Positions 30,609 to 64,000 of a stretch of 64,000 nucleotides of DNA are shown here, piece by piece. Within the stretch, counting starts at the first letter, position 1, and every line of letters begins with the position of its first letter. Under the pieces are notes generated by a model. It saw only the letters and a list, made by a program, of their open reading frames with translations, had not been told where the DNA came from and did no database searches. Location of the stretch: contig NC_133232.1 of assembly GCF_040436345.1 (NCBI RefSeq), positions 26,876,315 through 26,940,314 of the forward strand, in the 5' to 3' direction. Both the position numbers and the translations under genes were made by a program. This stretch comes from Pagrus major. Taxonomy: Eukaryota; Chordata; Actinopteri; Spariformes; Sparidae.

Positions 30609-33600
30609 TCAAAAGTAAGATTCAGAAAAAGAAGCTGAATATCTGAGCGTCTGTGATCCAGACTTTACAGCATGAGGCTCATCACTGCTCCCTTTCTCTT
30701 TTTGCACCTGGAAACTTTTCCCCCTCGTCTGCGGTTTCCTCCTTTCCTTTTCCAACTCCTTCTCTCTCTTCTTCCTCAACCTCTCCTCCTCTTTCTCCCT
30801 TCGCTCTTGCTCCCGCCGCCTCCTCCTCCGTTCCCTGGAGCTCAGTTTCTCCTCCGCTGCCACCACCTCTTCCTCAACCGTCCCTGTTACATCACTGAAG
30901 TCCTGAATCAGGATTTTGGGGACTTGCATTTTGCCCTTTGTCTTCGTCTTCTTGGGCTGCTCTCCTCCTCTCAGTCTGCGGAAGAGACCGAAACGTTTAG
31001 GCGGCTCCTGCTGCACCTCTGTCCTCTCTTCAGACGGTGATGAGGTGACTTCTGAAGGTGGAGTTTGGGTTGGGTTTACTTCAGTGAGTTTAACTTCTGG
31101 CTGATCAGGAATAGATTCTGATTGGCTAGTTTTCTCTGGCATGGTAAAGAGGTCTTCAGAGAGCCTACGTCCTAACCCACGAGAGCTGGACGACTTGCGG
31201 ATGCAGACATCTCCAGAGGAGCGGCTGCTGCGAGGCCCGGAGGCTTGTGTCAGGCCGCTGTCACCCAGCTCAGTCTGGTCTTTTACAAGTGGAGGCTCTT
31301 TTTCCTGGAGTTGGGGGTTACTGTCAGTATTGTTTGAGTCCGTTGGTTCAGTAGAAATGAAGACGTCGTCCTCTATTTCTGTGTTTTCTTGAACATTTTC
31401 TGTGCGTTTTTCCTCCTCCACAGCACCCTCAGCTGCCTGGACCTTTGGTTGTTCAGGTGGGGGTTCTTCAGTCGTGCTCACTTCCCCTGAACTCCCATCA
31501 GGCTCAGCGTTGAGATTCACTTCTTCAGTCTCGGCTGAAGACGCCTCTTTCTGTGGAGGTGCTATGGAGTCGGTAGTTTCTGTTGGTGCTTCCTCTGCTT
31601 GTGTCTGATCATTCTCAACGTCTGAGTGTGTTTCTTTTTCCTGTGAAGGCTCAGATGCTACTGCTTCACACTCTTCCTCTGAATATTGAGCAAGTGCCTC
31701 ACCTGACTCCGTCACTGTGTTGTTTGAAATAGGTGTTTCTGTCCCAGTCTTTGCATCAGCTACTAAATCTTCCTTGGGTTGGATGCATTCAGGTGAACAC
31801 AGTATTAATGTCTCTGCTTCTTTCTGTGAATCTATGTGCTGTTCTGACTCTATTTCTACTATTTCAGCCTCCAAATGTGCAGCCTCACCTTCCTCCACCT
31901 TCTCTTGAGTTTGTGCCAGTTCGTCAGTTTCTGTCTCTGTTTGGGTGTGGGCTTCTTCTTTCATGTCTGTTGTCTGGCTCTGTGAATCTATGTGCTGTTC
32001 TGACTCTATTTCTACTATTTCAGCCTCCAAATGTGCGGCCTCGCCTTCCTCCACCTTCTCTTGAGTCTGTGCCAGTTCTTCTTTCATGTCTGTTTCTGCT
32101 AATGACTCAGTGCTGTGGTATTTTCCATCAAATACGTCTCCCTGCGAGCTATTGTCTGTCTCTGTGATCACTTCCTGCTGCTGCTGGTGCGTCTCTGACT
32201 CCGCTGAAGGATCTTTGACAGTTTGAGCTTTGCTTTCGCCATCTGTGTCTGTGTCTGAACCTGGACTTGTCTCAGTTGTTGCGGAGACTTCCTCGACTGT
32301 GTCCACCTGTTGCACAGTTTCAGTTTCTGTGCTCTCAGCCTGAATCATCTGTTCCTCACTTGCGTCTACACTTTCCTCCGTCTCCACCTCTGTGTTTGCA
32401 TCAGCATCTTTCTGTATCTCCATCTGATTTTCGTCCACAGCAGCTGTATGGTCACTCTCTACCTCATGTTCTGGCTCTTTATTTGCATCTTTGACTTCAG
32501 TTTCCTGGTCAGTGTTTTCTTGACTCTGCTGTTCCAGAATTTGGGAGTGATTACAGGAGTCCAGCTCCTCTCCCTGCCGGGGAATATTTTCTAAAGTCTG
32601 ATCTTCGGCTTGACTTTTGGTTTGTTCTGTCTCCACGTTTAGTTCTTTGCTTTCCTCTGTCTCTTTGAGTTCACCCTCCTTGTCTTCAGTGACTCTTGAT
32701 TCCACTTGTTCAATCTGTTCTCCCTGCCGAGGAATATTTTCTAACGTCTGATCTTCGGCTTGACTTTTGGTTTGTTCTGTCTCCATGTTTATTTCTTTGC
32801 TTTCCTCTGTCTCTTTGAGTTCACCCTCCTTGTCTTCTTCAGTGACTCTTGATTCCACTTGTTCAATCTGTTCTCCCTGCCGAGGAATATTTTCTAACGT
32901 CTGATCTTTGGCTTGACTTTTGGTTTGTTCTGTCTCCATGTTTATTTCTTTGCTTTCCTCTGTCTCTTTGAGTTCACCCTCCTCGTCTTCTTCAGTGACT
33001 CTTGATTCTACTTGTTCAATCTGTTCTGTCACTATGACGGTTTCTTCTACCTGCTCTGTCGGTATCTTTTGGATGTTGTCCATCTTTTTAGATTCCTTTT
33101 GTTCAGTTTGTCCCGTCAGTTTCGGCTCGCTCTGTGTTTTCTGTTCCTCTGAAACTATGTCCTCCTCCTCCTGAACGCCCTGCACCTTCTTAAAATTTGC
33201 CCCAGTCCAGCTCCTAAAGTCTTCCTTCGCTCCCATTGAGACATGCCTTACAACTCTGCTGCTGCCGCCTTCCCCTTCGCCTGCGTTGGCCTTTCCCCCT
33301 TTCTTCCACCTCTTGTGAAGCATGGAGGGAGACAGCGAGAGAGTGGAGGCTGAGCGAGCGAGAGGGACGGACAAGTTCCCTTTCTCTCTCTCTTTCTTGT
33401 CCCGTTCTTCCTCGTGCTGCCGAGCCCTCGCCCATGCCATCCGATATCCCAGGCAACGACCTCTAGGGTCAAAAGTGGATGAGGGTCTGTCTTTCCTCCA
33501 CTTTTCTAACTCCTTCTCCGTCTGCTTCTCCAGATCTCTGGCCGACAGCTGCACTGAGCACACCTAAGAAAGAAGGAGGGACATTTATCTCATTTTTGTT

Positions 33601-50559: not shown

Positions 50560-53500
50560 ATGAAGGACCGATTGGAGCAACTTAAAGCGGTAAGAAGTGT
50601 TCAGGAAACGTTACATTTTCTTACACTGTCTCTTTTTTTCTTCAGTTTTGTCTGTGTGTACACTTTAAAAAGCCTTTCTTACAGGAAGAAATGAGAGTTA
50701 AGTAAATGAAAATTACATTATTTCCATTTTTACTTGAACACTTGGTACAACATACTGATCATTTGAACCAATAGTGTAACATGAGATGACCCCTGTGATA
50801 GATGTAGTAACACTGTAGGATGGGAAGTGATTTTGAAATGGGGATTTCAGGTAGAAGTCACTCAGTCATTCATCATTTTCTGTTGCTTTACAAGCAGCCA
50901 TGTTGCACAGTATTGTCTGACAATTACGTGTCAGAAATGTGCTGTTAATGGAATAAATAGTGTCATTTTTACTGGTTGGTCTGGTAAATCACCAGCTGTG
51001 TCAAGTTTCATGTTTAAGTTGGTGCCCTTGATTCCTACAGTATGATCCAGATCTGTGAATAAACAATCATTAATCAATTTACTTAATCTTAGCATTAGGC
51101 AGTTTCAGATTAAAATTGCAACAACAGCGTTATTTTGGTGGGATTTTCACAGATTAACTGTTGTCACTTGAGCTGAGAGCGGGAAATTAATCGGCAAACA
51201 TTTTAATGACTGATTAATTGTTATTTTTCCAGCAAAAATCATGTCAACATCTTTGGTGCCAGCCTCTTAAATGTGAGGATTTTGCTGCCTATCTCTGTCT
51301 CATATCAATGTTTATTGGACATATTTGGGTGTTGGACTGTTTACCAGACAAAAACAAGCAATTTGAAGACGTCACCATGAACATCTTGAAGTATTTTATG
51401 AACACATCGGTCAAGAAAATATTGGTTACTGTAGTCATAGTCACCACCACTACACGTTAAGCTATTCAGAATATGTTAATTATGGTTAGAGCCTGACCAG
51501 TACTCAATTTTTGGGGCTGATGCCGATAAAAAATTGTCATATTGATATATCGGCTGATATACAAACACTTATTGCAATGATCCCTCAAATTTGGTTATCA
51601 AACACTTGTGTCAAAGCTATGTAACAAAGGGAAAGCGACACCTGTGCACTGAAACCACAAACTTTACAGGTATTTTAATTATGAATTACTTCTGCTTTTC
51701 ACACAATAAGGTTTCATATCAGCGCATATCGGACAGCACACATGCCAACAACGATAAATCTGTGATAGGCCAATATTTGCCGATAACATCGGCTATTCGA
51801 TGTATCGGTCAAGGTTGAGAGTTTTAAAAATTGATACAAGATCAACAGTTGAAATGGAGTGAAGCAGTCAGACTGCATATCTTATACAGCAGCAACACAG
51901 AAGTAATTAGCAAACACAAACTTCCTTCCTTATGACAGTGAATACACTAGCTGCCCGCGGGGGTGAGGCTTTAATCCAATTGTAACTCAAGTCGGGATGT
52001 GTTGCCATAGCGACCTGAAACTGCTGGCCAAATATTTGCTGTGTTTAAGTTGTCCCCCCCTTCACCCCTCCAGACGTCTTTATCTCACACAGCTGGTTTC
52101 TTTTCAGGGCAAGGAAGTACGGATAGCAAGTGAAGTGGGTCAGTCAGTTGTTGGGAAGTTGACTGTATTTATGTTAAGACCTATAAAATGATCTACTGTC
52201 CTTTTCACCTCCACTTTTTCCAGTGTTTACACCTCCCTTTCTTTATCTTTCCTCTTTGTCCACACTCACCCACCGCCGCAGTTTTCCTCCGTGAGTTTTC
52301 TATCTAATGTTTAACTTCCCGGCAGTAATCTAGGCTGTATATTGGTTCCTGTGTGTGTTGGGGGTGGGGGAGTCATATGTTCATGTGAATATGGGCTAAT
52401 GCCAACACCGGCGTGATCACCTGATGTATGCTGTAGATTTAAGCAAAGAGGAGCAACAAGAAACGCTGACTTATAGTTTAACCTGGAGCTAAAGTCATAT
52501 GTGATCGTTTATATTGCCTTGTATGCTTTGAATACAGTTTCTTGCTCAGACAGTTGCCAAGAAGAACATCAGCTGACACTGTTGTACTGTTCACCATATT
52601 TCATTTCCATGACCCAGACTGAAGGCTGGAGATAATATGACAGCAGTTTTCTTCCAAAACCCATGTCCTCTACAGTTTTGTGTGCACAGTGTTTCCCATT
52701 ATTACCTCTCTGCTCCCCCACCTGGCTCAGATGTCAGCACAATGAATGGGGTAAATTGTACCAGAGCTAACACGGCTTCTTCTGCGGCACATGGAGTTTT
52801 TAAATCCCTTGTCAGATTTTAGCATTGCATTAACACAAGTCCTGATGGGAGTAGTTTGGCTTCTGTCACCACGCTGCTGTAAATCTGACCCCAGGTCCTT
52901 GTCCTGCTGCTGCAATCGCTACCGGCTCATTTTCTAAATCATCCCGTGGGAAAATCTAGTCCAGAGGGCTGCAACAAACAGTTGTTTTTATGAAATGATG
53001 AATCTGCCTAAAAAAACTGTGCAAAATTACCATAACAATTTCCTTCGGCCCAGGATGTTATTACATTGCTGGTTTTGTCTGACAAATTCTCCAAAGATGA
53101 TACATTTACTCAAATAATGACATATGAATAAATAAAGCAACTAATTCTCTCAAGTGATTGGCTGAAACTCTGTAAAGTTTGGCATTTTTGTTTGGAAAAA
53201 ATATAAAAATAGCTTTAGATGAGACGTCTGTCGATTACTGTCAAAAACTTAATGATTGATTGATTAATGTCTGTACATGTTTTTTACCGTATGTTAGGAT
53301 TATACATTCTGATTATCTCTTGAATGCGTGGCATTGTGATCGCCTGTAACAAGTTTGTCAGACCGGGCTGCACGCTCCTTATGACTGGACCAGCTGGATG
53401 GTGAAACTTGACTGATGAAAACGTGCGTCACGTTTTGGGTCTAAGCAGGGCTACTTCTTCAGTTTTGGTGAGAAGTTAAATGTGTTGATCTTAACGATGG

Positions 53501-56500: not shown

Positions 56501-59500
56501 AACTCGCACTTGGTCCGGTTGCTCCGTTCTGTGCCGAAGCACGATTGTCCCTCCTCACCAGTCCCCCCGCTGGGCTGCACTCACATTGCTTCTGCTGCAG
56601 CTGGGCCTAAACACTGTTACCTCTTGTGCATACGTCATCATGTCGTAGCAAGGTCGCAGCAAAATGAAGAACAACAATAGAGAACATGACTTTACTGACT
56701 TTTTTTGTGGCTTATTTTGTGTCGTTTTGGTCATAGACAGCCATCTCACACTCCTGGATTTCTTGATTATGCAAAGCGGTGTAACACGCACGATTATACT
56801 TCATGTCCCCGTTGCCCACCCGTGCTTGTGCTCATGTATGAGCAACAGTACCGTGCAGAAGCACACCTCTTCCAACCGTGCCAGGGCCAAGAAAGTGTAG
56901 AAGCAACCTGTGATCTGCTCGATTAATTTTTTAGGGATCTGTAAATAAACATGACAACAGCTGCGATACTGTTTTTTTTGTTTAGGACGACCAAGAATTG
57001 AGAGTTGACACGTTAACTTACAACATTTAAGATTCAAATTCCTTTTAAGTGTGAGACAAAACACAAACTACAAACAATTTGTTTTGGTTACTGTAGTAAA
57101 GCTTTGAAACATTCTTTTACTTTACATTTTCATTATTAACCTGATGCAAATCTGCATAGTATATTGATCACTCAAAACACAAGGTGACCAAAAGCTGATG
57201 CCTGGTTGCCTGGTTGCCCTGTTGTTGCAGCTGTAGCTCTGAGATCTTCTGCATTATTTAACTCAATAAAAAACAATGAACAGCGTGAGTTCATTCAAAA
57301 GTTAAAGAATAACTATCGTTAGAGTTGTTCTACTGCAGCATAATAAAGTGTAATATTGATATTTATTGAGATTACTGGTTTACAGACAGAAGCCGAGTCA
57401 GGTGATATGAGAGAGCAGTGAAGTCGACGGGTGTGTTGGCTAGTTTTTCCATGCTTTGACTTTGATCCTGGCTGACATTCTCCAGGAAAGTCAAGTGTCC
57501 AGACTTTAGACTCTGTGTCACCTGACACAAAACAGAAACACAAGCCAAGTTGTGTGGAGGGTTTAGTCGGCCAGCGACACTCTTTAGGTGCGCAGTGAAA
57601 ACACATTTGTCTGTAAAATGCAGAAGTAATGAAAAGAGAGGAAACAAAGTGCGCTAACTCTCCCTTTTTTAATTCATTGTTTGACCCTGGTTCTCCTCCA
57701 CCTAACACCGTCACAGCGGGGCCCTATGATGTCTGTTTACACTGTACAATGGCCGCTGTGGTTTCTTACAGCCAGTGGAAAACAGGTTGAGTTCCTGGAG
57801 CCCGGCCCTCACCATGTAAATACTCAGCAGCACTGCACTGCCCTGTGTTTACTGACTGTCCCTTGTGACACGTTTATGACTTCAGCAGAGTGAAGCTTTG
57901 ACAGACTTTATTGGGTGGAGGCTGATTAGGGTCAGACCAATATTTCTGGCTGATGCGTCATGCGGAGCTGTTAACCAGGAAGCAATTTCATTAGTAAGTG
58001 GTTGTTCATCGCCGAAATGCTGTTCGCAGGAAGAAATAAATCTCTAGACGAGAAGTACTCGGTATATTTGGACAAGATGGAACACACTCTTCCGAATTCA
58101 GTTAAAAATATAACAGTAGTATTGGCCTGTAAAAACTATAATTTTATTGTAAGATGATCATTACAATGCTGATTATCTTGAGCACATTATTGACTCAATG
58201 AAGACTTGGGATCAGACTTGACGTTGACTTAAATGTGTCCATTTGAGTATCAAAAATCGTCAAGTATTAAGATTTTTGACTCATCTCTGTTAAACTTCTT
58301 GCACAGCTGCTTAGTGTTTAGACAAAGTCAATAAGATGGTTCATTTTGGGAAATATGATTATTTGTTTTCTTGTTGCAAGTGACATACGGAGATTGATGT
58401 CACTCTCGTTTCTGTATGCTAAATATGAAGTCACACCCAGCAGCGGGTTAGCTTAGCTTAGCAAAGAGTAGAAACGACAGGTTGTTGTTTTATGGGCACT
58501 TACAGTATATGGTGGACTATTTCTCCGCTGTCCCCTGACAGTGACAACAAGACTCCAGGAAATAGTCCTGATGCATTCGAGAAGTTTGGCTTATTTTGTT
58601 GAATATCACCTCAAACGTGAAGATCAGCCAAATCTTGTGTAAGCTACCTTTCTGTTTGTGACTGATTACGGTGGCATATTGGCATGCAGCCTTTATTCAG
58701 TGCTGATACCTCGGACAGGTCTCTCTTGGAAAATCCTGCTCTCTGCGTTCATGAGCAGACAGAGCCGCCTCTTTATGGAGTTCTTGGACCAGATTGGATA
58801 AAGTGTGCAGGGATACCAGAATAGTTATTTTCTCATTTACTGCATGAGCAGGAGGAGGAGAGACATATGTTACTGACCAAACACTATCAAAGTGTTTACT
58901 CTTGGAATATAGAGCTATACAGGCACACAGAGGTAGTTTTTTTTACCCTTATCAACACAACAAAGACCTGAATAAATCTTTAATCTGGATGTGATGACGA
59001 CATACTTTACACGTTGAGCTTTAGAAAAACATGTTCTACACATCGCACGTTCTCTCTGGAGCTACTCTGATCCAGCCTTTACTTTTATCCTTTCAGACGT
59101 GTGATCAAGATGACGAAGAGGTGGAGATTGCTGTGGACAACGCAGCCTTCATGGACGAGTTCTTCTGTCAGGTCAGTGTGACTGTCGGTGCACAAGTGTG
59201 TGGGAACTGTACTTCTTCACTCGTATTTATGAGGCTGTACATGAATGAATGTTTGTGCGAATGCCTTCATTCTTTTGTCGTCTACATACACTTCAGTTTC
59301 ATGGCGTGTGGTGTGCTTGTTTCAGATCGAGGACATCCGGAACAGCATTGATAAAATTGATGAGAATGTGGCTGAAGTCAAAAAGCTTTACTCGGTCATC
59401 CTGTCTGCACCCACATCAGATCAGAGTAAGATACTCTACCACGACCAGCTTCTCTTCCTGTTCACCTGACTTGACTCACTTAGGGTCATATTGAGGAGGT

Positions 59501-62500
59501 TTTTCTTACCTAATCCCACTGTTTATCCTTTACAAGCTGCTTTCTGTCCCAATTTGAGTTAAATCAGACTTTTGTTAAGAGGAACTCACTCAAAACTCAG
59601 ACATAAAAGCATGATTTTCTTAAAGCAACATTGCAATATGTCAATGCAGCTTCACTGGATTGTAACAAGTGATAGCGTTTGAAAAAGACGGCAGATCTTA
59701 ACCTGGCGTCATTTAAATGTCGACGAGATAACAGTTTATTTGTAGTCGCAATAAGTGTGTGGTTGTCTCAACAGTCTTGGCTGTTTATTGCCACATGTCT
59801 CTTCCTTCCCAGAAACACAGGATGGCTTGGAGGCAATCACCAATGAAATAAAGAAGATGGCCAACAATGCAAGAAACAAACTCAAGAGTGAGTCTGCCAA
59901 CCACTAGCACACACACACACACAACTTGTCAGTGAAATTAAAGGGGATATTTAATAATTGATTTAATGTTAAATATTGCTGAAGAATTCAACTGAATCGT
60001 AAATCAATTGTTTGGTTCGCTTTCCAGCCATCGAGAGGAACCTGGAGTCAGAAGAGCAGGAGAGGGTGTCGGCTGACATGCGGATACGTAAATCACAGGT
60101 AAATAATGTCCGCCTGAAGTCTCAGGTCGCCTCTGCTTTTATTCTTACTCTTTTTCTCGTCTTTACTGCCTCTTCTTCTATTCTTCTTATGTTCTTCCTC
60201 TGATTATTGTAAAAGAAAAAGAAAAGGATAGTCTTTCACAATGAAAATTGAGAATGTAGAACCGTGAATCCAGAAAAGGTAACACGTAAAACATAAACAT
60301 ATATATAATTAATTGTTTTCCATTTAGTATATGTCAAAAAGAATCAGTACATTATCACATTCTGTTGTAGTTTATGTTTTCCACAGCGTCCCAACTTTTT
60401 CGGAATCGGGGTTGTTTGTTGACATTTGTGAGATGTGATTTCAGATGTGTCTTGGTCCTTAAGTTTAGGCCTCGAGGCAGATTTTTAGTACGTACACCAA
60501 GATAACATATGTGCTACTTCATTCTTTCCTGTGTCTCCCAGCATGCAGTGCTGTCCAGGAAATTTGTGGAGGTAATGACGAAGTATAATGAAGCCCAAGT
60601 GGACTTCAGGGAGAGGAGTAAAGGACGGATTCAAAGACAGCTAGAGATCAGTGAGTGGCAGTCACATAAATGGTCATAAAGTCATGTGATGGTGCCACGG
60701 TCTTAACTCAATAACACTTTTCTTTTCCATTCCAGCTGGAAAAGCAACAACAGATGACGAACTGGAGGAGATGTTGGAGAGTGGCAATGCTGCCGTGTTT
60801 ACCGCAGGGGTAAGAGTGTGTGCGCATGCATTTCCACCACTTTTATCAGTACTAAAACATTCACTTTGCCTTGACACTGATGATCATGTGGTTGAACTGA
60901 GAGAAGGCCAAGTTGTCATTGGTTCAGTAAAACGCCTCGTATCAACTTGTTAAAGATTAGCTGTGCGTGTGATTTGGCCTCAAAGTCAGTTTGCTCTCTT
61001 GTGACTTCTTGAGTGCCCCAATCCTCCCAATCAGCCTTTCTTAAGAGAAATAAATGAGAGACTGTGAAAAGATGCAAGAATGACAGCTCATGACAGAGTG
61101 CTGAGTTGTATTGTTTGATAAAATGAGCACCAGTGTATCTCAACTGAACAGACACAACAGCATGTGTGCTATATATTGTTGAGAAAGCCTCTCTACGCCT
61201 ATTGTGCTGAGGAGACGGTTGTGTCGAGTACAGTTCGGAAAGAATTTCTTGTGCAAGGATACAACTAGACACAGATCTGATAACATCTGACCATGAACAC
61301 AAATAGAGAGGGTGAGTCATACTAATATAACATTTGGTGCATGTAGTGGACAGCTTAGTTTGGTTAATGACAGTACAAAATATATACATCATAGGGGTTT
61401 TTGAATATTGATTTTGTGTTAATAAAATATCACCTCTTAAATCGTTTCCTCTTCTTTCCGTACTCGCTTTTGTTATAGCAAGTGGCGGTAATGAACCTTA
61501 AAGCTGGTCGCCATCCGCCATTAAACAGTAAAATGTATTAAGTGTAATGGTTCTCTTTGTAAGCTTCTGTACAGTTATTGCTACAGACAGTTGGTTTAGT
61601 CCTGTTAAGTATGATAAATGGAGTGCAGTCTCATAGCGCTTTTAGCATAAGTGGTTCACATACACGCTCACACATCTCTCTTGACCATTGGGATCAACTG
61701 GAGTTCAGTGTCTTGCTCAGGGACACTTTGAAATGTCGACAAGAGGAGCCAGGAATCAATTTGCCCAACCCTGCAATTATTGGATACTACCTACTGATCC
61801 ACAGCCACTGCTGTTCATTGAGCTACACACTGGCTGCTAGGGTTAATACAATTACCTCTCATTTCCCGTTGAAGCGGCAGACACTTCTCTTTGTGAGGAC
61901 TTTATGTAGTTCTCTGTATCACTATGAGATGGACTTATATTCAGTTCCTCATGATTTACCTCCCTGCCTTTTCCTGTCAGATGCAAACTAAACTGGATCA
62001 CGGCCAATCTCTGCCACGCTGACAAGAAATTGAAAGACGAGATATTAAAAATGAGCCTGGGACATATCTTCATGTCAAAAGTGATGAGATGTTGGTGGTA
62101 ACTATAGACCTCTCCCCTGCACAGATTGTGGACTCTGGGATCTCTAAACAAGCCCTGAGTGAGATTGAGTCCAGACACAAAGACATCGTCCGTCTGGAAA
62201 GCAGCATCAAGGAGCTGCACGACATGTTTGTAGACATTGCCATGCTGGTGGAGAGCCAGGTACAGTACATCCACCTGCCAGCCATCATTTCATCCACCCG
62301 TCAGTTAAATCAGGAACTTCTCATCTGTTTCATTCATTCTGAACCTTTCTCCACGGCTTTGTGTTCAATCCTGACTTCTCTCTGTTTGTTTTTCTTCCTG
62401 TCGTCACTGTGATCTGACTATCAATCTGCATCTATGTCTATTTCCTCTTTTACAGCTCCATGCCTTTCTCACACCTCTCTTCACCTCTCTTCTGCCACCT

Positions 62501-63418
62501 CCACCTCCATCTCATCACCCAACATTGCTGGAACCAACATGAATGCATTTAGTAAGATGTACCAATAAAACACCATCGTAGACATCAGAGCAGACTTGAA
62601 TGAACACAAACACATATTCAGTCTTCATTTTATGCACATGCATACAGAAGTCTAACCACATATTTCTTGCTTGCCTGCGTCATGCTTTCTGAGGGCAAGG
62701 CTGGTTTGAGGTAAGGGCTGCACTCCTCTGCTTTGTGTTGTGTCATTTTGCCTGAAAACTCTTGTTTTCCTTGTGTCTTTATTTCCAGTTTTTAGTTTGA
62801 AGAAGTTTGTTACAAAAGTCTGTTTTAAAGGCCTTTGTGTATTTTAACCAGAACTATACGTTTGTTCTGCTCTGTTTCTCACTGATTGTGGTTTTGTTTT
62901 TCAGGGTGACATAGTAGACAACATAGAGCAGAATGTGTCCAAGTCAGTGGACCACATAACGGTGGCAAAGGAACAGACCAAAAAAGCTGTAAGGTACCAG
63001 ACCAAAGCTCGTAAGGTAATGTAATTCAGCCAAGTGCTGCATCAGTCTGCATCAGTCTGCTTCTGACTTCTTCCTGTTTTTTTCTGCTTATCTCCAAGAC
63101 ATGTGACATTTTTTTCACAGTTTGACACATTTGAACCACACAGTGTGCGTACTGATCACACTCCCTCATCCTGCCGATCACACAATCGTTGCATTCTCAA
63201 TGCTTTGGTTTTTGTTTCTCTCTCTCTCTGTCTTTCTCTTGCTGTTGTTTTTTGATTTCTTTGCTTCTGTTGCTTTCCGTCACCTCTGACACCGTGCCAC
63301 ATGTTAGGGTGGGATGATCGACAGGATTGAGAGCAACATGGACCAGTCAGTGGGCTTTGTGGAGCGGGCCGTAGCAGACACTAAGAAAGCGGCAAAGTTT
63401 CAGCAAGAGGCTCGACGT
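50560..63418 (+). CDS. stx3: Syntaxin-3, plasma-membrane t-SNARE (3' end outside window)
   Basis: Exons: 50560-50589, 59097-59171, 59326-59425, 59813-59887, 60028-60098, 60542-60650, 60736-60809 and 62125-62259. Two alternative versions of exon 9 follow, at 62905-63015 and 63308-63418. With one exon 9 the frame gives 260 residues; the transmembrane exon(s) lie beyond 64000. Syntaxin-3 is the Qa-SNARE for apical and ribbon-synapse exocytosis, pairing with SNAP-25-type and VAMP proteins. Start [10 protein letters not shown] is identical to human STX3. The Habc domain spans about residues 28-150 and the SNARE motif starts near residue 185 ([19 protein letters not shown]). The ionic-layer Gln is the last residue of exon 8 (LVESQ). 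Exon phases match human STX1/2/3 genes. Intron 1 is 8.5 kb. It could in principle be another STX1-4 member, but the N-terminus and [15 protein letters not shown] favour STX3. Confidence 0.93.
51490..51820. repeat. dispersed repeat relic with gccgata words
   Basis: Contains ggctgatgccgataaaa, gatatatcggctgatatac, gcgcatatcggacagc and caatatttgccgataacatcg, related to the relic at 20530-20985. Unidentified family, degraded copy. Confidence 0.45.
53740..54060. repeat. dispersed teleost repeat in stx3 intron 1
   Basis: Phrases gtgatatctcaagaacacct, gagggaatttcttcaaattt, ggcacaaatgtccacttgga and ggtcaaaggtcaatttcac form a block I recognise as one of the most frequent teleost intronic repeats. The family name is uncertain. 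Confidence 0.6.
56500..56930. mobile_element. possible decayed DNA-transposon relic
   Basis: Words such as ccgaagcacgattgtccctc, tacgtcatcatgtcgtagca and tgcttgtgctcatgtatgag recall hAT-like non-autonomous elements of fish. Terminal inverted repeats could not be defined, so this stays tentative. Confidence 0.3.
58330..58600. repeat. dispersed teleost repeat, copy B
   Basis: Contains ttcattttgggaaatatgat, gtctgtatgctaaatatgaa-like sequence, cagcagcgggttagcttagc and ctccaggaaatagtc, in the order typical of a very common teleost repeat. Copy A at 15840 shares the middle part of the family. Confidence 0.55.
60810..62124 (+). other. stx3: stx3 intron 7
   Basis: A 1.3-kb intron containing the repeat at 61650-61840. 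An open frame at 61578-61991 runs through that repeat and is not a gene. Nothing else was recognised. Confidence 0.6.
61650..61840. repeat. dispersed teleost repeat in stx3 intron 7
   Basis: Phrases gttcagtgtcttgctcaggg, acactttgaaatgt, gaggagccaggaatcaattt and ctactgatccacagccactg match the order of a frequent fish repeat. It is degraded and its family name uncertain. Confidence 0.6.
62905..63015 (+). other. stx3: stx3 exon 9, version a (STX3A-like)
   Basis: 111 bp, phase 0 to phase 0, flanked by tttttcag and gtaatg. It encodes the C-terminal half of the SNARE motif, 37 residues from [20 protein letters not shown] to YQTKARK, matching the ubiquitous mammalian STX3A version (DNIE, VDH, YQ.QARK). 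Confidence 0.9.
63308..63418 (+). other. stx3: stx3 exon 9, version b (STX3B-like)
   Basis: 111 bp, phase 0 to phase 0, flanked by catgttag and gtgagt. It encodes an alternative 37-residue C-terminal SNARE half, from [20 protein letters not shown] to FQQEARR. It resembles the retina-enriched mammalian STX3B and syntaxin-1 ([23 protein letters not shown]). Confidence 0.9.
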
Positions 63419-63899
63419 GTGAGTGACTACAGTCAGGAAGAGCGGCCTGGTTTCCCAAAAGCAACGGAAATAGTCACTTGCTACAGAATAGTAGGCAGCG
63501 ATTATAGGTAGTACAAAGAAGAGAGAGACAGTAAGAATGAAATTCGACACCTCGGGACAAAGATTGTGTCAGAGTTCATAAGCCCGGCCTTGTAATAGAA
63601 CGCGGTTTCGTAGCACAATCAATGGCTTAAGATTTGCAGCAACACAAGGTGATGTAATTCAGTAAGATGCAGTGCAAGCACACATTCCTGGTAAATAGCT
63701 TTGCAACATAAACGGCGTATTTCTACTGTTGCAATCATTCCAACAAAAGACAAATTGGCTTGTGTTACGATAAATAAAAGAGTTTTAAAGTTCTGTTCTG
63801 CTGTGCAATGTTGAGCATCTGTAAGATATTAGACTCATGGATCTGCGACACAAACTGGCCGTCCTGCTTGATATGAGAGTGATACAAGAAGGGTTAGGC

Positions 63900-64000
63900 T
63901 TTAAAGAGTTTAATATGGTTAGATGATTCAGTTGTAATCCGAAAGAGAGAGTGGATTTCGGATTACAACTGAATCATCTGATCATATTAAACTCTTTAAA
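63900..64000. repeat. near-perfect 45-bp inverted repeat at the window edge
   Basis: 63900-63944 is the reverse complement of 63956-64000 with two mismatches (near 63917 and 63919) and an 11-bp loop. It may continue past the edge. It lies in an stx3 intron, so the RNA would fold into a long hairpin. Confidence 0.9.

Follow-up and report, generated by a model that had tools for sequence, protein, structure and literature searches.

From our analysis of a 64,000-nt stretch of the Pagrus major genome (hereafter the window; C18 26876315-26940314 of a genome of 785.9 Mb in 25 contigs), the stx3 gene, which fills the final 13.4 kb of the window on the + strand, was found to carry two homologous versions of exon 9, here called 9a and 9b. 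This exon pair is very probably the STX3A/STX3B switch of the fish stx3 gene, and we infer that both exons are used, never together. The exons of the gene within the window are as follows.

50560..50589, + strand: exon 1, coding part, with a putative donor (the single MKDR match across the window's three + frames)
59097..59171, + strand: exon 2, from open frame and splice sites
59326..59425, + strand: exon 3, from open frame and splice sites
59813..59887, + strand: exon 4, from open frame and splice sites
60028..60098, + strand: exon 5, from open frame and splice sites
60542..60650, + strand: exon 6, from open frame and splice sites
60736..60809, + strand: exon 7, from open frame and splice sites
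62125..62259, + strand: exon 8, common to both isoforms, ending at the zero-layer glutamine of the SNARE motif
62905..63015, + strand: exon 9a, STX3A-type C-terminal SNARE half, by its match to human 9A
63016..63307, + strand: intron between 9a and 9b, 292 nt
63308..63418, + strand: exon 9b, STX3B/STX1-type C-terminal SNARE half, by its match to human 9B

The MKDR string used to locate exon 1 is presumably that of mammalian STX3. Exons 2-8 (59097 to 62259) follow one another in matching phases with AG/GT borders, and 9a and 9b, which are identical at 62/111 nucleotides and 15/37 residues, are each 111 nt long, in phase 0 and flanked by AG/GT borders that make their splice sites compatible. The first-pass annotation had placed two 111-nt exons of the same phase, 292 nt apart, after stx3 exon 8, and its coordinates, lengths and spacing proved right to the base. 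Joining exons 2-8 to either 9a or 9b yields an open frame of 250 residues in each case. The Pfam Syntaxin model (PF00804) was matched at 132.7 bits, and Syntaxin and SNARE models were found in both spliced forms, the SNARE model (PF05739) scoring 31.1 bits in the 9a form and 26.9 bits in the 9b form at a cut-off of 26.8; the best solved-structure relatives of the 9b form are syntaxin-1A entries. We also scored 720 open candidates of the form AG-111 nt-GT from both strands of the window and of seven syntaxin regions of 30-33 kb (the overlap of the window with the C18 region being counted twice) against four reference halves, and none but the previously identified exon 9s (81-186) rose above a score of 20, with the reservation that three of the references come from genes of those exons and the fourth from the C2 stx1 exon, so that such rows are self-matches. 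On these sequence scores, an origin of the exon pair by chance is excluded.

The types of the two exons were assigned against human 9A and 9B sequences, which we rebuilt from the junction probes given in part of PMC8263458. Fish 9b shares 32/37 residues with human 9B and 18/37 with 9A, and fish 9a shares 21/37 with human 9A and 17/37 with 9B, which bears out the earlier reading of the first exon as STX3A-like and the second as STX3B/STX1-like. Hydrophobic or small residues are retained at SNARE layers +1 to +8 in both exons, in a layer numbering that we take as given and that agrees with PMC9183232; a passage of the same paper puts the zero layer at the splice border in mammalian STX3A/STX3B too. 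What lies behind exon 8 is a same-phase exon pair offering one SNARE half of each type, the arrangement that characterises the STX3A/STX3B switch.

Such a switch also calls for alternative membrane anchors, and within the next 8 kb past the window we found three candidate membrane-anchor exons ending in stops (positions in L005).

L005 2541: stx3 anchor candidate 10a, KTVIIVVIVVVLLAILALIIGLSVGLKQS followed by the stop
L005 4394-4471: stx3 anchor candidate 10b, KMIFIGVCCAVIVLIIVIVIITQTV followed by the stop, between the A- and B-type anchors
L005 7110: stx3 anchor candidate 10c, KKMMITLCCAIIGIVGFSYLYSFFS followed by the stop

Alternative anchors of A and B type are thus available downstream, as three candidates and not two. 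The first-pass annotation had suggested looking to the right of the window for matching pairs of exon 10, and the alternatives are indeed there. Candidate 10a resembles human 10A and the stx2 anchor (z 7.4 and 9.3 when 10a is shuffled, 5.9 and 8.5 when the partner is), and reaches z 4.2-4.8 against the b-type stx1 anchors as well. Candidate 10c resembles the anchors of a second stx3 copy on C1 and of both stx1 genes and human 10B (z 6.9-8.2, and 6.3-8.9 in the reverse comparison). Candidate 10b is closest to the stx4 anchor (z 6.0), with several others at z 2.3-3.8, and is without a clear counterpart; it is likely to be an stx3 anchor exon, not a certain one, as the anchor scan also returned two implausible matches elsewhere, in other syntaxin regions. 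By analogy with human 9A-10A and 9B-10B, 9a would most likely be joined to 10a and 9b to 10c. Given the order 9a-9b-10a-10b-10c, a 9b-10c transcript must skip two further anchor exons, so that either both choices are coordinated or mixed forms exist. The region past 9b also holds a near-perfect hairpin, 466 nt 3' of that exon (window 63885-64000 to L005 1330, about 64015), with 60-nt arms that are 93% complementary and an 11-nt loop. A genome search that skips very common words found it at this place only, and Rfam returned only below-threshold microRNA matches on both strands, which sets aside a known microRNA.

To place the pair among its relatives, the genome was searched with exon 8, which gave 12 matches. 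Seven gene regions (30-33 kb) were studied, with two C22 and two C16 matches in long open frames (297-328 codons) and a weak C9 match (E 0.23) left out. Gene names were given by resemblance, and the exon 9 types are listed below.

C18 stx3, the gene of the window: types a and b
C1 stx3 copy, 30-kb region: type b only
C2 stx1, about 13988000 (L008), - strand: a-like and b, with the 9a-like exon accompanied by a second anchor exon
C23 stx1: type b only
C5 and C12, stx2-like: type a only, one exon 9 each
C20, stx4-like: its own exon 9 type

The anchor exon of the C12 gene was not found in the 10 kb scanned. The 9a-like exon of C2 stx1 (GGLVNNIERRVLEAQDYVEQAKETIPKCKKFKKASKR) is 111 nt long, in phase 0 and 209 nt upstream of the canonical exon 9; it scored 81 against at most 20 for all non-exon candidates, and the match of the stx2 exon to its first 23 residues has E 9e-5 within the 30-kb region. 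The additional anchor exon of this gene reads KVMLIGGCVAVCLTVLIISLAVGLS up to its stop. A proline near layer +7 and a diverged last third indicate that the 9a-like exon may be a modified or decaying form. In exons 6-8, C2 matches rat STX1A at 93/107 residues and C23 at 86/107; the C2 gene would be the stx1a-like one rather than C23, in a 1a/1b naming that is provisional.

In the C1 stx3 copy, 8/45 residues of exon 8 differ from the window gene, and its 9b is identical at 37/37 residues with 20 nucleotide differences, all synonymous. Besides this 9b, a single b-type anchor exon was found in the 30-kb region, and six query peptides (E 1 or less) recovered no 9a relic there, only short chance-like matches. 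Conceivably, one of the two exons in the window could be a disused relic, the C1 copy now supplying the b form, and the b-only content of the C1 region would allow such a division of labour between the copies. The purely synonymous divergence, with 0/37 residues changed, indicates instead that 9b of the window gene is still constrained, and for 9a the frame and splice sites are intact and an anchor exon of the same type exists; we regard a relic as very improbable.

With regard to the age of the pair, a fish-specific exon duplication was rejected in three tree tests (p-AU 0.004 for protein, 0.0017 for DNA and 1.9e-6 in the third test), in agreement with the first-pass suggestion that the pair is older than the fish-tetrapod split; all our trees contain one fish genome with human and rat rows, and the C2 9a-like exon is a long branch in them. 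The groups have moderate support: in the protein tree the b exons form a group (86/99) and the a exons are not one group, the DNA tree has an a group (95/97) with stx4 inside b, and the tree of exon 9 joined to the anchors has both (a 89/88, b 64/87). A single clade of all a-type exons including that of C2 was not rejected (p-AU 0.49). The tree of exons 6-8 puts stx3 with stx2 rather than stx1 (89/95), with C23 misplaced beside stx4, and the 9b tail of stx3 groups with stx1, so that the tail and the body of the gene point to different relatives. This conflict between gene body and tail, together with the a-like exon of C2, speaks for a 9a/9b pair that was in place before the STX1/2/3 split and was later lost unequally among the genes, an age that we consider probable. 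The ancestral STX1/2/3 gene would have carried the pair and later partly lost it: the stx2-like genes would have kept a, C23 stx1 b, C2 stx1 and C18 stx3 both, and C1 stx3 only b.

A tandem duplication in stx3 alone before the fish-tetrapod split, with the STX1-like 9b produced through convergence or gene conversion with stx1, is in our estimate unlikely. The 37 residues of exon 9 hold little signal, and by themselves they do not reject one stx3 clade (p-AU 0.076 for protein, 0.055 for DNA); an independent, stx1-only origin of the C2 pair was only just rejected (p-AU 0.048). Once the anchor exons are added, in a joining that assumes the 9a-10a and 9b-10c pairing, the stx3-only duplication is rejected (p-AU 0.015). 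It would also have to contend with the a-type exon that C2 stx1 has in the same place, with the a type of the single exon 9 found in each stx2-like gene, and with the affinity of stx3 exons 6-8 to stx2. Taking the pair as older than the STX1/2/3 split, the a/b tail choice would be an ancestral chordate switch, and C2 stx1 would retain a usable a-type half (37 codons, 209 nt upstream) and a second anchor, with a distant branch point immediately downstream of the a-exon donor keeping the choice exclusive. We give this fuller proposal an even chance.

How the two exons of stx3 could exclude each other was then considered. Exons 2-8 joined to both 9a and 9b remain open (287 residues), which rules out exclusion through decay of frame-shifted transcripts. 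Double inclusion would not be prevented by the reading frame alone, and exclusion would therefore have to act at splicing. Three features ahead of 9b bear on this.

63144..63307, + strand: AG-free zone before 9b, 164 nt, pyrimidine-rich
63150..63156, + strand: candidate distant branch site TACTGAT, A at 63155, a full YNYURAY match at the 5' end of the AG-free zone
63284..63290, + strand: competing candidate branch site CTCTGAC at ordinary distance, full consensus, 19 nt before 9b

AG-free gaps of at least 164 nt are rare in the window (2/3995 on the + strand, one of them the zone before 9b, and 0/4440 on the - strand). The only other such gap, at 30839 on the + strand, lies opposite a 984-codon open frame (30609-33563, - strand) of low complexity that is E/Q/T-rich and built of near-repeats. 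Among 40 syntaxin acceptors (44 rows less four mis-assigned AGs, C1 e6 9914, C23 e6 5770, C23 e8 10198 and C12 e9 10947; window exon 2, with an AG-free zone of 21, and exons unplaced by tblastn are outside the 40), the two longest AG-free zones are those of stx3 9b (164) and C2 stx1 9b (191 of the preceding 209-nt intron), which are the two exons behind a tandem partner; the chance of this by rank is 1/780, the stx3 value having been noticed first and the C2 gene then used as a test. In the five exon 9s that lack a tandem partner the zones measure 23-94 nt. The count of CU-rich motifs is likewise highest before stx3 9b and second before C2 9b, a measure that tracks pyrimidine content as AG-free length does and is not independent of it. 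Exon 8 of the C1 stx3 copy (C1:35396000-35396134, - strand), for which no tandem partner is known, is preceded by 143 nt of AG-free, CU-rich sequence that ranks third on both measures, so long AG-free zones are not unique to pairs.

The zone before stx3 9b exceeds the 100-150 nt or more of AG-free sequence by which distant branch points are recognised. In human, according to passages of PMC1431707, 838/67,334 exons have an AG-free zone of at least 100 nt and 165/67,334 one of at least 150; distant branch points account, by the authors' estimate, for only one fifth to one half of the zones of at least 100 nt, and PTB regulation was a feature of each of the few cases examined experimentally by 2006. 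The long AG-free zones behind tandem partners suggest distant branch points, and for one upstream of stx3 9b the chance is slightly short of even. In OGDH exons 4a/4b, as described in part of PMC7969005, a branch point that lies at most ~50 nt past the upstream donor (25-41 nt in human, 46 nt in sunfish) enforces exclusion. In stx3, the first candidate inside the AG-free zone, the TACTGAT A, is at +140 from the 9a donor and 153 nt before 9b, which is too far, and an ordinary site is present as well; steric exclusion is consequently unsupported for stx3 itself, and a 9b acceptor under regulated repression is no less likely. The C2 stx1 intron is a closer match to OGDH than stx3, with candidate branch sites at +22 and +29 from the 9a-like donor (5/6 consensus match), besides weaker matches 36 and 11 nt before the exon.

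Exclusion could also be regulatory only, with PTB-type repressors and tissue-specific activators selecting one exon, the ordinary branch point 19 nt before 9b in use and no distant one, a reading to which we assign a little less than an even chance. For Musashi as a possible retinal regulator, the literature search listed a single paper, which mentions Stx3 once. The full-consensus CTCTGAC and the top rank of 9b in CU-rich motifs among the 40 acceptors agree with it, as does a 111-nt mouse Stx3 exon, 9A or 9B unspecified, that stands among the 50 highest-scoring predicted PTBP1-repressed exons (p 0.84; part of PMC3907290). The 20 nt before the 9b AG, however, are 60% pyrimidine, joint fifth-lowest of the 40 acceptors, and the pyrimidine tract and AG-free zone lie upstream of CTCTGAC, the layout described for distant branch points. 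In the mechanism with a distant branch point, a transcript would take 9a (general/epithelial) or 9b (retinal ribbon-synapse) as the second half of the SNARE helix, and a membrane-anchor exon past the window would follow the one chosen. The likely device would be a distant branch point placed within the AG-free, CU-rich 164 nt ahead of 9b, and PTB-type proteins would repress 9b outside neurons and retina. RNA pairing between introns, another conceivable exclusion device, was also computed: the duplex of intron 8 with the 9a/9b intron (-109.4 against a mean of -89.9, sd 6.9) was reached by 0/60 single-base shuffles of this repeat-rich sequence, and the other two flanking-intron pairs by 3/60 and 22/60 shuffles with single-base content kept.

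As for the protein, the first-pass annotation held that the C-terminal SNARE half decides complexin and SNAP partner choice. In the passages of literature consulted, this half is instead connected with the clamping of spontaneous release, with the size of the primed pool and with Munc18-1 levels, and none of them has it select complexin or SNAP partners; complexins 3/4 are described there as clamping STX3B complexes, and different SNARE partners of STX3A and STX3B are raised only as a possibility, in one review. In excerpts of PMC10957171, STX1A D231N,R232N has a smaller primed pool, and most STX1A-to-STX2 changes in this half, including V248K,S249E, give more spontaneous release. At 231/232 and 248/249, fish 9a has DN and KE and fish 9b has DR and VA. 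Positions 232 and 248 thus separate 9a from 9b in the same direction as STX2 from STX1A; at 249, 9a is STX2-like and 9b is neither STX1A nor STX2, and D231 is the same in both. The E259K change acts as an on-switch in mammalian STX3B (part of PMC9183232), and fish 9b, aligned with human 9B, has a glutamate at this place. We infer that a protein with the 9a half would be a general-purpose syntaxin under weaker clamping, and one with the 9b half the retinal form.

The STX3A/STX3B switch is known in human and mouse (passages of PMC11476516 and PMC8263458), and both forms have been reported from goldfish retina, as cited in part of a review (PMC11119284). The switch in a fish is hence not new. On the presence of both forms in a fish, the first-pass annotation is anticipated by the goldfish report, and the pair may go back beyond the STX1/2/3 split. 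The goldfish work, reportedly that of Curtis and colleagues in 2010, is said to have used RT-PCR; like ours it concerns both isoforms in a fish, and it differs in that genomic exon layout is given here. Compared with mammalian STX3 (9A-10A-11A versus 9B-10B-11B, part of PMC8263458), the gene, exon position, exon length and the types of SNARE half and anchor are the same, whereas the fish has a third anchor candidate (KMIFIGVCC..TQTV and stop) in between and a second stx3 copy with b only. The OGDH exons are similarly tandem and homologous, with a short intron and a long AG-free, pyrimidine-rich zone before the second; in OGDH and in alpha-tropomyosin-type exons the branch points have been mapped (parts of PMC7969005 and PMC1431707), whereas those of the fish syntaxins are candidates. 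C. elegans unc-64 exons 8a/8b also give a neuronal-type syntaxin alternative C-termini, chosen by an RNA-binding protein, but these are alternative last exons with the membrane segment, and a pair of SNARE halves is not described in the passages concerned (PMC4946901). None of the titles, abstract openings and passages covered by the full-text searches describes a distant STX3 branch point, another exon-9 pair within stx1 or an origin before STX1/2/3, and two papers on the origin of exon pairs (PMC9741552, PMC4465641) have no STX or syntaxin in the main text.

STX3B is needed for ribbon synapses and vision, and the fish locus offers a testable splicing hypothesis for its exon choice. This hypothesis, a distant branch point with PTB-type repression, links stx3 to a second case, stx1 in the same genome, stx1 being the main neuronal syntaxin. 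Should the pair be older than the STX1/2/3 split, the present-day chimeras exchanging the C-terminal SNARE half of STX1A and STX2 would retrace a natural exon swap near the zero layer. In essence, if the ancestral switch is true, what separates the neuronal syntaxins (STX1, STX3B) from the general ones (STX2, STX3A) today would be the gene-by-gene sorting of the splice choice of one gene.
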